Assembly (NCBI GenBank): GCA_934725655.1
Contig: CAKVCJ010000102.1
Coordinates: 1-6,715, forward strand
Length of the DNA stretch: 6,715 nucleotides
DNA from: an uncultured Brachyspira sp.
GTDB taxonomy: Bacteria; Spirochaetota; Brachyspiria; Brachyspirales; Brachyspiraceae
Reading direction: 5' to 3'
Shown here: positions 1,456 to 6,715 of the stretch, one piece after another
How positions within the stretch are numbered: the stretch's first letter is position 1
Layout of the letters: the number at the start of each line of letters is the position of its first letter
The notes under the pieces: generated by a model
What the model was told of the DNA's origin: nothing
Database searches by the model: none
What the model saw: only the letters and a program-made list of their open reading frames with translations
Position numbers and translations under genes: made by a program

Positions 1456-2670
1456 ATGGAAACAATGTATAATAAATTTTTAAATATAATAAATACTGAT
1501 ATCACTCTAAATAAAAACTTAAAAATATTAGTTAGCATATTTGCAGTACTATTTTCAAATGTGCCGTTATATATATATTTATTTAGTATTGATATAATAG
1601 AAGCAAAAACATTGATTTTGTTTATAGTAAAAAGTTATCCCTTTTCATTTTTTTATTTATTTTGCTTTACTATATTATTTCACACTGATGTATTAAAAAT
1701 TAAAACAATAATAATGACTTTTTTATCTTTTTTGCTTATAAGTTTATTGTTATTTTCTTTTCATTTTATATTTAATTATGTTGCAATGCCTCCTTATGAT
1801 TCTGAAGATTTTTATGTGATTATTAATAATTTAGTATTTGTGCCTTGTGTATTTTTTATTATAATGATTATTTCTTATATAAATTTTGATTTAAAAGATA
1901 CAAAAAATATTTCTGAGTTTTTTACTATGGTTGGAGAGACTTTCTCTTGGCTTTTTATTATTAATACGGCAAGCAGTGTTTTAATATCAATAGCATATTT
2001 TTCAATTTTTATAGTAGGTGCTTCTTTAGCTTCGCTGCTTTATTCTTATGATGAGGCGGGATTTATATTTGCCAAAATTGTTATTTCTTTAATAATCTTT
2101 TTGTATAGCTTAGCTTTATTTATATCTTATTTCTTATACAAAAAAACTAAATCTATTATATCAATATATTTATCAAGAATGATTATGATATTTAGCTTGG
2201 TACTTATATTTATACTTTTTATCGCATTATTATCTGCCGAATTTAGACCTTATGCCAATACTGTTAGTTTTGTAGTTTATAATATAGCACTTTCACTTAT
2301 GATGATAAATCTTTTCTTTACAAGATTAGATAAAAAAGCTACTATCTTAACTAAGATAATATATTGTCTGACAATAATTTCTATATCGTTATTAGATTTA
2401 ATTGTATTTAGCAGTGTTTTATATAGAATTATAACTTATGGGTTTTCTATGAGTAAGCTTATACTTTTAATAAATTGTATATTGTTTTTAGCACATCTTA
2501 TTTATATTGCTGTTAATGTTGTAAATAGATTTAGAGAATCATTTGAAGAGTGTATTGTGATGAAGGATATATGTATAGACAATACTAGGCATATGATATT
2601 TATTTATGTTTATTTAGTATGGTTTTTGATTATATGTTTTATTTTGCCGTTTTTCTTTGCGGGTGTATAA
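1456..2670 (+). CDS. polytopic membrane protein, DUF4153-like (tentative)
   Basis: A 404-residue integral membrane protein with about eleven hydrophobic segments (roughly 24-44, 52-75, 86-108, 121-142, 165-195, 204-227, 240-260, 267-288, 299-321, 334-356 and 380-402), joined by short charged loops. The segment LYRIITYGFSMSKLILLINC (322-341) resembles the 'R...YG.T..R' helix pair of DUF4153/DUF4173 proteins, whose function is unknown. The rest shows no motif I recognise. No signal peptide beyond the first helix, and no catalytic or transport motif, can be seen. The first ATG has no Shine-Dalgarno site and lies almost at the predicted transcript start. The ATG at 1465 has a weak GGA 4 nt before it and is an equally good start. 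The gene stands alone, convergent with a tRNA gene. That it is a real gene is nearly certain; the family is a guess. Confidence 0.85.
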   Translation: METMYNKFLNIINTDITLNKNLKILVSIFAVLFSNVPLYIYLFSIDIIEAKTLILFIVKSYPFSFFYLFCFTILFHTDVLKIKTIIMTFLSFLLISLLLFSFHFIFNYVAMPPYDSEDFYVIINNLVFVPCVFFIIMIISYINFDLKDTKNISEFFTMVGETFSWLFIINTASSVLISIAYFSIFIVGASLASLLYSYDEAGFIFAKIVISLIIFLYSLALFISYFLYKKTKSIISIYLSRMIMIFSLVLIFILFIALLSAEFRPYANTVSFVVYNIALSLMMINLFFTRLDKKATILTKIIYCLTIISISLLDLIVFSSVLYRIITYGFSMSKLILLINCILFLAHLIYIAVNVVNRFRESFEECIVMKDICIDNTRHMIFIYVYLVWFLIICFILPFFFAGV

Positions 2671-2697
2671 AGAGTAATAATGATTTTAAGTGGGAAG

Positions 2698-2771
2698 TGG
2701 GCCAGCAGGGACTTGAACCCCGGACCCGATGATTATGAGTCATCTGCTCTAACCGACTGAGCTACTGGCCC
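2698..2771 (-). tRNA. tRNA with anticodon CAT (tRNA-Ile2 or elongator tRNA-Met)
   Basis: A complete 74-nt cloverleaf on the minus strand. The acceptor stem GGGCCAG/CTGGCCC has 7 perfect pairs and discriminator A73. The D arm is GCTC-AGTCGGTTA-GAGC. The anticodon stem is GATGA/TCATC around loop CTCATAA, with anticodon CAT at rc of 2735-2737. The variable loop is GGGTC, and the T arm is CGGGG-TTCAAGT-CCCTG. The 3' CCA is not encoded (ACTT follows), so it must be added after transcription. It is not the initiator: the acceptor begins with a full G1-C72 pair and the anticodon stem lacks the three G-C pairs. Pairs C4-G69 and C5-G68 match the determinants by which TilS recognises tRNA-Ile2 in E. 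coli, which leans towards the lysidine-modified isoleucine tRNA, though elongator Met remains possible. Confidence 0.93.
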
Positions 2772-3007: not shown

Positions 3008-4417
3008 ATGATTAAATTTTATAATTCATTAACTAGGCAAAAAGAAGAGTTTAAACCTATGAATGATAATGAGGTAGGAATGTATTCTTGCGGCCCTACA
3101 GTTTATAATTATGCTCATATTGGTAATTTTAGGGCTTATATATTCAGCGATTTGCTTAGAAGGGTTTTAGAGGATTATGGTTATAATGTAAAATTAGTAA
3201 TGAATTTAACAGATGTTGATGATAAAACTATAAGAAACTCAAAGGAAAATCATATATCTTTAAGTGAATATACGCAAAAATATAAAGAGGCATTTTTTGA
3301 AGATATAAAAACTTTGGGAATAAAGCCTGCAACAGTAAATCCGTCTGCTACAGAGCATATAAAAGAGATGATAGATATAATAAAACTTTTAGAAAAAAAC
3401 GGACATACTTATGAGGCAGATGGTTCTATATATTTTAAGATTAGTACATTTCCGAGTTATGGAGAATTAGCTAATCTTGATAAACAGGAATTAAAAGAAG
3501 GTGCTTCTGGAAGAGTTTCGAGCGATGAATATGATAAAGAAAATGCAAGCGACTTTGTGCTTTGGAAGGCATATACAGAAGAAGACGGCGATGTTTATTG
3601 GGATTCGCCTTTTGGAAAGGGCAGGCCTGGCTGGCATATAGAATGTTCTGCTATGAGCTGCAAATATTTGGGCAAGCATTTTGATATACATACAGGCGGT
3701 GTTGATAATAAATTTCCTCATCATGAAAATGAAATAGCACAGAATGAAGCTGCTTTTAATGAGAAGTTTGTTAACTATTGGCTTCACTGCGAGCATTTGA
3801 TTGTTGATGGGGAGAAGATGTCTAAGTCTAAAGGAAATTTCTATACTCTTAGAGATTTGCTTAATAAAGGTTTATCTCCTGAGGCTATAAGATATTCGCT
3901 TATGAACTCTCATTACAGAAAACAATTAAACTTTACTATAGAAGGAATTAATCAATCTCAAAGTGCTATAGATAGAGTAAATGACCTTATATTTAGACTT
4001 AAAGATATTACTAAAACTGATGCCGATGACAGTGCTGTAATGAAGGAACTTGAAGAGGCTAATAAAAACTTTTTTGAATCTATTTATGATGATTTGAATG
4101 TTTCTGAGGCTTTGGGAGTATTTTTTAGTTTTATAAAGAGTATTAATGTTTCTTTTGAGTCTATTAATGTTAGCTCTAAAGATGCTATAATAAAATTTAT
4201 AGATAGAGTAAATAATATAATAAATTGTTTTAATATGAATGGAGAGAAGGAAATAGAAAGTACAGAAGAAGAAAAAATCAATAAACTCATAGAAGAGCGA
4301 ACTTTAGCGAAGAAAGAGAAAAATTATAAAAGAGCAGATGAGATACGCAATGAGCTTAATAGTATGGGAATAGAGATAATGGATACACCAAATGGGGTTA
4401 AATGGAAAAGAAAATAA
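3008..4417 (+). CDS. cysS: cysteinyl-tRNA synthetase
   Basis: Class I aminoacyl-tRNA synthetase that charges tRNA-Cys with cysteine using ATP, in the cytoplasm. At 469 residues it has the usual full length. The N-terminal zinc-binding segment MYSCGPTVY (25-33) leads into the HIGH-type signature AHIGN (36-40). The four expected zinc ligands are C28, C213 (in GWHIECSAMS), H238 and E242 (in PHHENEIAQNEA). The ATP-site KMSKS loop is at 270-274, followed by the helical anticodon-binding region. The C-terminal AKKEKNYKRADEIRNEL and GIEIMDTPNGVKWKRK are typical of the bacterial enzyme. Codon use fits the surroundings and nothing is broken. AAGGA lies 9 nt before the ATG. The gene is the first of a two-gene unit: its last 26 nt overlap the start of the exonuclease gene. 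Confidence 0.98.
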   Translation: MIKFYNSLTRQKEEFKPMNDNEVGMYSCGPTVYNYAHIGNFRAYIFSDLLRRVLEDYGYNVKLVMNLTDVDDKTIRNSKENHISLSEYTQKYKEAFFEDIKTLGIKPATVNPSATEHIKEMIDIIKLLEKNGHTYEADGSIYFKISTFPSYGELANLDKQELKEGASGRVSSDEYDKENASDFVLWKAYTEEDGDVYWDSPFGKGRPGWHIECSAMSCKYLGKHFDIHTGGVDNKFPHHENEIAQNEAAFNEKFVNYWLHCEHLIVDGEKMSKSKGNFYTLRDLLNKGLSPEAIRYSLMNSHYRKQLNFTIEGINQSQSAIDRVNDLIFRLKDITKTDADDSAVMKELEEANKNFFESIYDDLNVSEALGVFFSFIKSINVSFESINVSSKDAIIKFIDRVNNIINCFNMNGEKEIESTEEEKINKLIEERTLAKKEKNYKRADEIRNELNSMGIEIMDTPNGVKWKRK

Positions 4418-5291
4418 TATAATAGATTTGATAACTAAAACTTATCAGCATATCAATGGTATTGGTCCTAAAAAAGAAGCCTTACTCTGGGAAGAGGGTT
4501 TAACAGATTGGCAAAGTGTTATAAAAAATATTAATTATTATGCAATGCCGAGTTCTATAAGAGAGGCTTTAAAAGATGAACTTCCAAAATCTATATATAA
4601 TTTGAATGCCAAAAATTATGATTATTTTTTAAAGAAGTTTCCAAATCAAATACTTTATAGGCTTTATCCTATGTTTATGGATAGGGTAGTATTTTTGGAT
4701 ATAGAAACTACGGGTATGAAGCCTGCAAAGTCTTATGTTACAGTGATAGGGTGCTATGATGGGAAGGATATGCAGGTTTTTGTTCATGGCAAAAATGAAA
4801 GAGATTTTTTGGATTATATAAAAAATTATTCTATAGTTGTTACTTTTAATGGTTCTTGTTTTGATATACCTTTTTTGGAGCGATATTTTAATACAAAAAT
4901 AAAATGTGCTCAGATAGATTTACGTTTTGTGTTAAAGGATTTGGGATATACCGGCGGATTAAAAAAAATAGAGCAGGATGTTGGTATAGATAGGGGAGAT
5001 GATATGCTTGGTGTGAACGGATACACCGCTGTTTTGCTTTGGAATTATTATTTAGACACTAAAGATGAAACGGCAATAGATTCTCTCATACATTATAATT
5101 TGCTTGATACGGTTGATTTGGAATATTTATTATGTTTGGCATACAATAAATATGCAGAAAAATATAATGCTTCGCTTTTAGATTATAAAACTCTTCCTTC
5201 TGTAAGTAAGTATAAACCTAATAAAAAATTAATAGACTATCTGCATAAACATCCGCATAAATATTCGCCTAAGAATGATGATGATGATTAA
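4392..5291 (+). CDS. YprB-like DEDDy 3'-5' exonuclease/RNase H-fold protein with N-terminal HhH-like segment
   Basis: A predicted soluble metal-dependent nuclease. Residues about 18-45 (including INGIGPKKEALLWEEGLTDW) look like a helix-hairpin-helix that could bind DNA or RNA. The exonuclease fold spans about 98-255. Its acidic residues are D103 and E105 in FLDIETTG (101-108), D158 in FNGSCFDIPFLE (152-163), and Y235/D239 in YNLLDTVDLEYL (235-246). The Y-x3-D spacing places it in the DEDDy class and in the YprB-like 'ribonuclease H-like' family (known in Bacillus, role unsettled). The C-terminus is basic and then ends in NDDDD, encoded by a GAT run. The ATG at 4392 lies inside cysS in another frame, with ATGGA 9 nt upstream. 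A TTG at 4428 is a less likely start. The overlap means its expression is tied to cysS, but no functional link follows from that alone. Confidence 0.85.
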   Translation: MGLNGKENNIIDLITKTYQHINGIGPKKEALLWEEGLTDWQSVIKNINYYAMPSSIREALKDELPKSIYNLNAKNYDYFLKKFPNQILYRLYPMFMDRVVFLDIETTGMKPAKSYVTVIGCYDGKDMQVFVHGKNERDFLDYIKNYSIVVTFNGSCFDIPFLERYFNTKIKCAQIDLRFVLKDLGYTGGLKKIEQDVGIDRGDDMLGVNGYTAVLLWNYYLDTKDETAIDSLIHYNLLDTVDLEYLLCLAYNKYAEKYNASLLDYKTLPSVSKYKPNKKLIDYLHKHPHKYSPKNDDDD

Positions 5292-5309: not shown

Positions 5310-6461
5310 TTAATAAGCTTGATCTAATATTGTAGTGATAGCATCATGCGTCATAGCTTTAGGGAGTTTATCCATACCGCTGTAAGTTAAGGCTATATCG
5401 GCAACATTATTGAATTTGCTTCTGTCTATATTTATTTCATTGAGTCTTCGAGGCAAATTAAGGTCGTGAAGGAGCTTTTTAATATATTCACCGCTTTGGC
5501 TTGCTATTTCAAAAGGAGTCATTTCAGGGTCAACACCATTAATGAAATCTGCAAGTATAGTATATTTGTCAGGCACAACGGGGATATAATATTCCATAAT
5601 ATGCGGAAGAAGCATAGAAGCAATAATTGATTTATTAACAGAATACATATTATTAACAGCTATAGATAAAGCCCTCAAAGCACCAAGTTTGGCATTAGAG
5701 CTAGCCATAGCACACATCATATTAGCTATAGCTATATTTGATATATTCTCTACATTAGAGCTGTCTAATATTAATTTAGTTAAACCTTTAATACTAGTTT
5801 TCATAGCATTATGAATAATAGGTGCATTTATATCATTTAGAGTAGTACTCATATATAAATCAAAAGCCATAGCAAATACACTTAAAGCACTGCTTATAGA
5901 ATATTTTACAGGCACAGTAGTATATAGAGAAGGGTCTATTATAGAGTCGCTTGCATATATATTTTTATCTGTAGATTCTTTGCATATTCCATCATATTTA
6001 TCTACTAAATACATTCCTGTAGTAATTTCTGATAAAGAGCCGAGTATAGTAGGTATTGATATTAACGGGAACGGCTTATGATATACAGTTTGGCCAGACA
6101 CATAATCGGAAGCTTCTCCGCTGTTAGTAACTACAACCGAAGCTCCTTTAGCAATATTTTGTACTTTGAATCCTCCTATAGCTACTATGCATTCTGCTTT
6201 ACTGTATCTAACTAAATTTGCTATAACATCTGAAGCATCACTATTAGAGCTTGAATTGACTTTGGAATAAACCATAACATTCATTAAACTATCTTCTAAT
6301 TTGCTTACTATTCTATCTATTACGCCTATTTGATTAAAAGAATTTCCATCTGTTACAATAACAACTCTGCCGCCGTATTGTTTAATTGTGTCATGAAGAC
6401 ATTCTATAGAATCAATTCCGAATTTTATTCTTGTTGGTAATTTAAACTCTATTATAGCCAT
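5310..6461 (-). CDS. iron-containing alcohol dehydrogenase-family protein lacking metal ligands (probable pseudoenzyme)
   Basis: A 383-residue protein with the length and whole outline of group III (iron-dependent) alcohol dehydrogenases: KFGIDSIECL (13-22), the Rossmann-like VVIVTDGNSFNQIGVIDRI (33-51), SIPTILGSLSEIT (135-147), IIDPSLY (174-180), LLPHIMEYY (284-292), and the C-terminal LPRRLNEINI (336-345). The key residues are gone. The NAD motif GGGSxxDxxK reads GGFKVQNIAK (96-105). The aspartate and histidine metal ligands of DALxHAIEAY read S194 and M198 (SVFAMAFDLY, 194-203). The third ligand in LGAVHALAH reads R263, and the following His is I267 (LGALRALSI, 259-267). The fourth, in PHG, reads K277 (NKS, 276-278). 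The frame is intact over full length, so the protein is probably made, but not as a metal-dependent dehydrogenase. The ATG has only a weak GAG upstream, and no clear promoter is seen. It is convergent with the exonuclease gene across 18 nt. Confidence 0.9.
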   Translation of the reverse strand: MAIIEFKLPTRIKFGIDSIECLHDTIKQYGGRVVIVTDGNSFNQIGVIDRIVSKLEDSLMNVMVYSKVNSSSNSDASDVIANLVRYSKAECIVAIGGFKVQNIAKGASVVVTNSGEASDYVSGQTVYHKPFPLISIPTILGSLSEITTGMYLVDKYDGICKESTDKNIYASDSIIDPSLYTTVPVKYSISSALSVFAMAFDLYMSTTLNDINAPIIHNAMKTSIKGLTKLILDSSNVENISNIAIANMMCAMASSNAKLGALRALSIAVNNMYSVNKSIIASMLLPHIMEYYIPVVPDKYTILADFINGVDPEMTPFEIASQSGEYIKKLLHDLNLPRRLNEINIDRSKFNNVADIALTYSGMDKLPKAMTHDAITTILDQAY

Positions 6462-6571
6462 ATTTACTCATCATAATAAAAATTAATTTTACTACATTGA
6501 TTCTCGGAAAAAGTATGTTTATTGTTTAAATTAAATATTATTTTTTGTGTATAGTGAATATTTAGGAGCTT

Positions 6572-6655
6572 ATGAAAAATATTTTTGAGTTTTTTCTTCA
6601 ACTTTTTCCGCGTACGAGCTGTACCGCCTTGCCGCACTTTAATGCTATACTTTAA
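6572..6655 (+). CDS. 27-residue open reading frame entering element 2 (doubtful)
   Basis: An ATG at 6572 follows AGGAG (6564-6568) with a 3-nt gap, closer than ideal. The frame reads MKNIFEFFLQLFPRT and then about a dozen further residues to the TAA at 6653-6655. It has a hydrophobic start and ends inside the G+C-rich element. It could be a small membrane peptide, the remnant of a gene broken by the repeat, or a chance frame. The QLFP part falls on the motif shared with element 1 in the same register. Confidence 0.25.
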   Translation: MKNIFEFFLQLFPRTSCTALPHFNAIL

Positions 6656-6685
6656 TTATAACTTCTTAGTCGTGCGGGGGAGTGC
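6587..6685. repeat. G+C-rich structured intergenic element 2
   Basis: A second G+C-rich island in A+T-rich DNA. Its left edge, TTTTTTCTTCAACTTTTTCC (6589-6608), nearly matches the minus-strand edge of element 1 (TTTTTCATTCAACCTTTTCC). CCGCAC (6632-6637) and GTGCGG (6672-6677) are a perfect 6-nt pair enclosing 34 A+T-rich nt. GCACT (6634-6638) and AGTGC (6681-6685) are a competing pair. CGTACG (6611-6616) is a palindrome, and TTTAATG is repeated at 6638-6644 and 6688-6694. The spacer 6462-6586 to its left is plain A+T-rich DNA with an AAAAATATTTTT palindrome (6575-6586). The element may continue beyond the window. Confidence 0.5.
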
Positions 6686-6715
6686 ATTTTAATGTACAAT
6701 TAAATTATAAAATTT

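Follow-up and report, generated by a model that had tools for sequence, protein, structure and literature searches.

A ligandless Fe-ADH homologue of Brachyspira, with relatives encoded next to flgM in most other spirochaete lineages, as a probable partner in flagellar sigma28 control

What is the role of a protein that has the fold of an alcohol dehydrogenase and none of the residues that would hold its metal? The question is raised by a gene at positions 5310..6461 (minus strand) of a 6,715-nucleotide stretch of DNA from an uncultured Brachyspira sp. (contig CAKVCJ010000102.1), which we refer to as a whole as the window. The product, 383 amino acids long, carries the complete two-domain dehydroquinate-synthase-like fold, with both PF00465 and PF25137 matched, in keeping with the initial annotation of a full-length homologue of iron-containing alcohol dehydrogenases (Fe-ADHs). 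Alignment placed S194 and M198 (codons 194 to 198, 5868..5882, minus strand) at metal-ligand columns 1 and 2, which are Asp and His in group III Fe-ADHs. R263 occupies ligand column 3 and I267 the column of the catalytic-site His (codons 263 to 267, 5661..5675, minus strand), and K277 occupies ligand column 4 (codon 277, 5631..5633, minus strand). The cofactor-loop motif GGGSxxD was not found in the protein, where GGFKVQN stands in its place (codons 96 to 102, 6156..6176, minus strand). All of these replacements had been proposed from the window, and the alignment confirmed them. Residual nucleotide binding is possible, because the protein still has D38, T138, and both leading glycines of the cofactor loop.

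The residues of the protein thus contradict the name “alcohol dehydrogenase” for what is a core Brachyspira gene with kin in most of the spirochaete lineages that we read. Clade members are called “iron-containing alcohol dehydrogenase” or “alcohol dehydrogenase” in the databases where they are named at all, the majority of entries being nameless. Metabolic reconstructions that count this protein as an alcohol dehydrogenase are likely to be wrong, since its residues contradict that name.

The initial annotation had suggested a selected pseudoenzyme and had proposed an orthologue alignment and a test for purifying selection as the check; both agree with that suggestion. Exactly one copy was found in each of 29 Brachyspiraceae genomes (29/29; family profile search, E ≤ 1e-60). 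Values of dN/dS (NG86) were 0.07 to 0.09 between the window gene and four copies at 92 to 95% identity and 0.11 to 0.24 against six copies at 66 to 70% identity; for comparison, the neighbouring cysS gave 0.04 to 0.05. Among 30 distinct Brachyspiraceae proteins, none kept any member of the Asp-His-His-His (DHHH) set of group III Fe-ADHs (0/4 in 30/30), and three of the replacement residues recur in all or most of them (S194 in 30/30, R263 in 29/30, and K277 in 27/30). Column 198 is variable, with 23 L, 6 M, and 1 S. None of the orthologues read had its ligands intact. The gene is under purifying selection and is not decaying.

Searches of Spirochaetota combined with sequence reading gave 163 locus rows, 17 of them DHHH or DQHH and 146 ligandless. 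The ligandless rows represent 125 distinct proteins, a few of them fragments, of which 30 belong to Brachyspiraceae and 95 to other lineages. Among these 95, no ligand is kept in 61, one in 32, and two in 2, and the Asp column is retained in 30. The claim that every ligand has been lost therefore holds for the window protein and for Brachyspiraceae but not across the clade. In a tree of 88 rows built after removal of the motif columns, a single branch (SH-aLRT 99) splits 67 ligandless from 21 intact proteins; the tree comes from a quick search with SH-aLRT support and no bootstrap, and it carried warnings for four long terminal branches and for unusual composition in 13 rows. The window protein falls inside the ligandless clade, apart from the DHHH enzymes. 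Loss of the metal ligands and the cofactor motif could in principle mark a decaying copy of an active Fe-ADH. We reject that explanation as having next to no likelihood, given retention in all 29 Brachyspiraceae genomes, low dN/dS, equal loss across the phylum, and a single origin; in addition, the active DHHH paralogues (L018 to L021, four loci read in the nearest genome) are separate genes.

The pattern of loss and retention within the clade bears on what the fold could now be doing. The most strongly lost columns include the four ligands, loop positions 98 and 102, and positions 139, 142, 145, and 267, and fold residues such as G96, P137, D176, and P286 are retained. A metalloenzyme with a relocated metal site might be suspected from H287, present in 60% of ligandless rows. 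However, this residue belongs to the motif LPHxME, which also occurs in some DHHH enzymes, and our column comparison revealed no set of His, Asp, Glu, or Cys columns gained jointly across the clade. Other His or Asp residues in the metal site, which the initial annotation had named as evidence against its proposal, do not form a conserved substitute set in the clade, and we consider a relocated site very improbable.

The annotation had further suggested that the charge of the metal could be supplied by two basic replacements. As a family-wide rule this is not supported, since arginine is not among the ten commonest residues at column 263 outside Brachyspiraceae; lysine or arginine occupies column 277 in 46 of the 95 ligandless proteins there. 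A charge pair between columns 194 and 277 was also considered. Acidic residues at 194 were associated with charged or polar ones at 277 in an uncorrected comparison (Fisher 3e-11), but the pair was dropped and is not claimed here, because the tree gives only 4 independent pairs and no significance.

Flagellar regulons often include modification enzymes. Under an alternative hypothesis, the protein belongs to the flagellar regulon as an enzyme that has dispensed with metal and acquired new chemistry, its ligand pocket rebuilt, perhaps to make or modify a flagellar sugar or another filament component. The intact fold and the conservation of G96, K105, D154, D176, and P137 (69 to 100% of ligandless rows) would suit such an enzyme. 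The four ligand columns and columns 267, 98, 139, and 142 are nevertheless among those most strongly lost, residues at the ligand columns vary from lineage to lineage, and no new shared catalytic set was seen, which makes this alternative unlikely. The anatomy most likely points to a scaffold rather than a catalyst. Partnership with an active ADH as a structural component, another role offered in the initial annotation, found no supporting evidence.

A further indication of function comes from the neighbourhood of the gene outside Brachyspiraceae. There, flgM lies next upstream on the same strand for 77 of the 95 distinct ligandless proteins (76 at first count, plus L149 after correction of its start codon), with gaps of up to 344 nt, and 41 of 48 family-level groups show the adjacency. 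For the remaining 18, of which 2 lie at the end of a contig, no flgM adjoins the gene. Six weak-scoring loci found later (L235, L237, and L244 to L247) are also ligandless and flgM linked. None of 45 intact DHHH/DQHH rows is linked to flgM (0/17 and 0/28, the latter without a contig-end check). PF04316 was matched in all four linked examples scanned, and the profile that we used to search for FlgM was built from 22 linked loci.

A separate join of coordinate lists from overlapping genomes gave linkage in 77/85 and 15/15 among the matches listed, with genomes having flgM beyond the matches listed left out (36/121 and 14/29). In a held-out check centred on 36 flgM genes, among the matches listed and from genomes in which linkage had not been examined before, 34 had an Fe-ADH-like frame behind them in the same orientation, and not one of these 34 frames is DHHH or DQHH. 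Two cases are weak (L270 at 32 bits and L288 with a 445-nt gap), and G316 and G365 are the exceptions, with no copy beside flgM. What this check reinforces is the linkage and not the mechanism. Two candidate FlgM-ADH fusions were rejected: in L149 (G088), flgM is a separate overlapping open reading frame in another frame, and the long open frame of L251 (G141) shows no FlgM.

The gene order rsmI-flgM-ligandless gene recurs on a single strand outside Brachyspiraceae. The first gene, in a cluster of 41 loci, encodes a TP_methylase-domain protein (Pfam) that we call RsmI by resemblance. Since the adjacency also takes in rsmI, a housekeeping gene, inertia of the operon may account for some of the conserved gene order. 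The ligandless protein could then be an old pseudoenzyme with an unrelated job that rides the rsmI-flgM operon and has no flagellar role. The unlinked copies also fit this hitchhiking explanation: they occur in eight groups (f1, f2, f15, f26, f29, f31, f34, and f35), and five adjoin a transporter gene, following a Mem_trans-family gene (cluster C15) at L082, L083, L087, L093, and L106 (f15, f26, and f34). Against it, the copy in G049, away from flgM, is divergent to fliQ, fliR, flhB, and flhA (Pfam); several unlinked copies have sigma28-like sites; and the gene tracks FliA across the chosen genomes, as described below. At several other unlinked copies, the upstream scan showed no such site. 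We judge hitchhiking to be somewhat less plausible still than new chemistry.

Other genes recur around the ligandless gene. A SpoU-type methylase gene is kept beside the G049 copy and follows flgM-linked copies in five other loci. At three of the five Mem_trans loci, the unlinked copy is followed by a GAF-SpoIIE phosphatase gene. A gene for an AIR-carboxylase-domain protein resembling larB (cluster C4) lies directly downstream of flgM and the ligandless gene in 10 loci (L057, L058, L060, L073, L076, L079, L088, L089, L100, and L107), and in six of them it is followed by a nickel-insertion gene resembling larC (cluster C11). A link to nickel-pincer cofactor chemistry is possible.

The full sigma28 consensus has the form TAAA-N15-GCCGATAA. 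Upstream of flgM, 11 to 12 of its 12 positions were matched in 32 of 76 loci; of the 439 other genes in these loci, 1 had such a match, and shuffles gave an expectation of 0.22. Of the 32 strong sites, 25 lie 40 to 58 nt before the called flgM start. Since strong predicted sigma28 promoters precede flgM there, flgM and the ligandless gene very likely form one sigma28-dependent unit in those lineages. Neither the window nor the Brachyspiraceae loci examined yielded FlgM, and flgM lies elsewhere in Brachyspira genomes. The window does contain a predicted sigma28-like promoter, TAAA-N16-TCCGAGAA (6501..6528, minus strand), about 40 nt before the ATG of the ligandless gene; the chance expectation for the shorter sigma28-like pattern is 0.29 matches in the window. 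A scan of 22 Brachyspiraceae loci gave TAAA-N15/16-TCCGA as the top-scoring upstream site in 18, and all 10 Brachyspiraceae upstream regions that were aligned share an unchanged TTCCGA. The Brachyspira sites score only 9 to 10 of 12, which shuffles often equal, so the argument for this putative promoter is its conservation and not its score.

In G012, a genome of complete size, the pattern TAAAN{14,16}KCCGANA had 27 matches against 123 for the reversed control and is therefore not enriched overall. Its sites include those of the ligandless gene (L212), fliF (L196), cheX (L203), and non-flagellar genes; others lie before flgM (L211; 21.7 bits, below the Pfam cut-off of 25) and 267 nt upstream of a flagellin gene (L206). 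A mapped sigma28 promoter is described for Treponema denticola flaB2, with TTAA at -35 and CCGATAA at -10, in the promoter passages of PMC9481697.

Among 35 genomes that we selected, FliA scored above the cut-off in 22. The searches detected a ligandless copy in 20 of those with FliA, and the 13 FliA-less genomes yielded none. The latter comprise 8 genomes of group f49 and 5 of group f37, in which the FlgM profile search also found no FlgM. The f37 genomes had no family match at 1e-45, and the best family match in each of the eight f49 genomes is a DHHH enzyme, although very divergent copies could fall below the E-value thresholds used. Absence calls by score alone are soft, because low-scoring copies in G037, G076, G151, G361, G381, and G349 proved to be ligandless and flgM linked and high-scoring matches in f49 to be DHHH enzymes. 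Two FliA genomes, both FlgM bearing, lack a detected copy (G031, at 1e-40, and G082). Two further FlgM-bearing genomes (G238 and G246) had no family match at 1e-12, and in three others (G148, G300, and G356) the matches read, a part of all matches, were DHHH. Given such FlgM-bearing genomes without a detected copy, the ligandless gene is usual but not obligatory where sigma28 is used. The losses that underlie the co-occurrence are few and not all independent. In G212 (L249:748-2734), the SpoU methylase gene comes straight after rsmI-flgM with no ligandless gene between, an apparent loss.

The two conserved neighbours of the gene in the window lie on the opposite strand. The convergent one encodes an RNase_H_2-domain protein (4392..5291, plus strand); its position is conserved in Brachyspira, and it is outside any flagellar context. 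It overlaps by 26 nt (4392 to 4417) with cysS (3008..4417, plus strand), also a conserved neighbour in Brachyspira. Further along, the window holds a 404-amino-acid open reading frame (1456 to 2670, plus strand) that resembles a membrane protein and has no Pfam match, and a tRNA-Met gene with anticodon CAT (2697 to 2771, minus strand). GC-rich patches at 1260 to 1380 and 6600 to 6690 stand out within very AT-rich intergenic DNA and share no repeat of at least 20 nt; the second is upstream of the ligandless gene, and the corresponding upstream patch in L001 has a different sequence.

We postulate that the protein acts without catalysis as a partner in the FlgM/sigma28 switch that serves the periplasmic flagellum, a reading to which we give a probability of roughly 0.6. 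It draws together the loss of ligands and motifs, the single clade, selection, flgM adjacency, sigma28 promoters, and co-occurrence with FliA. The flagellar linkage of the ligandless clade is well supported, and what we hold most firmly, as quite probable, is that the gene belongs to the sigma28 flagellar regulon. Of the roles listed in the initial annotation, that of a regulator fits best, though a link to the FlgM/sigma28 circuit is invisible from the window alone.

The short protein FlgM acts by masking FliA. Because its putative partner is encoded directly behind it, a protein that binds FlgM or FlgM-FliA would be the simplest role, although direct binding to FlgM, proposed from sequence, is the least certain step and for now a tentative one. 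We speculate that the protein and FlgM are produced together as late flagellar products that depend on sigma28, and that in the cytoplasm the dehydrogenase fold, having lost its metal and probably NAD as well, offers a scaffold to FlgM or FlgM-FliA. By holding FlgM (or FliA), passing it on, or protecting it, such a scaffold might adjust the time for which sigma28 is kept off; a binding partner would alter the stability, availability, or export of FlgM or of FlgM-FliA. In Brachyspira, the gene stands apart from flgM but keeps its own predicted sigma28-type promoter. A bolder conjecture, which may well prove wrong, is that this spirochaete family, named iron-containing alcohol dehydrogenase in databases, supplies the anti-sigma28 switch across Spirochaetota with a second component that has so far been missing: a partner devoted to FlgM, which would escort it or release FliA and would be special to bacteria with periplasmic flagella.

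How does this protein compare with known systems? Relative to the group III Fe-ADHs FucO, Zymomonas ADH2, and DhaT, it has replaced the ligands, the catalytic-site His, and GGGSxxD alike. Regulatory Fe-ADH homologues are already known: in the portions of PMC12997753 that deal with ethanol oxidation in Pseudomonas, ErcA likewise places an Fe-ADH fold in a regulatory setting, and its homologue YiaY is termed an Fe2+-dependent alcohol dehydrogenase. The NCBIfam models for ErcA (NF041833) and choline dehydrogenase score best for the window protein, which falls short of the ErcA equivalog (142.5 bits against a curated cut-off of 550). The likeness to ErcA is one of setting and model score, and ercA is paired with a histidine kinase gene, whereas the ligandless clade is paired with flgM.

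In the open-licence literature, with subscription journals outside its scope, we found no link between the protein and FlgM or spirochaete motility; an “Alcohol dehydrogenase” of unspecified gene is listed in Table 3 of a Brachyspira exposed-proteome study, as excerpted (PMC4955376). The nearest system is FlgM/FliA of Treponema denticola, where a sigma28 promoter is known and flgM corresponds to the direct upstream neighbour of the ligandless clade. FlgM is unusual there, in that its loss lowers flagellin expression and FlgM stabilises FliA, according to the relevant passages of PMC12655853. Excerpts of the T. denticola accounts (PMC12655853, PMC9481697) give CsrA as a further regulator and name no dehydrogenase-like partner. 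With its place immediately after flgM in most spirochaete lineages, the conserved ligandless gene readily suggests itself as a candidate for a missing factor.
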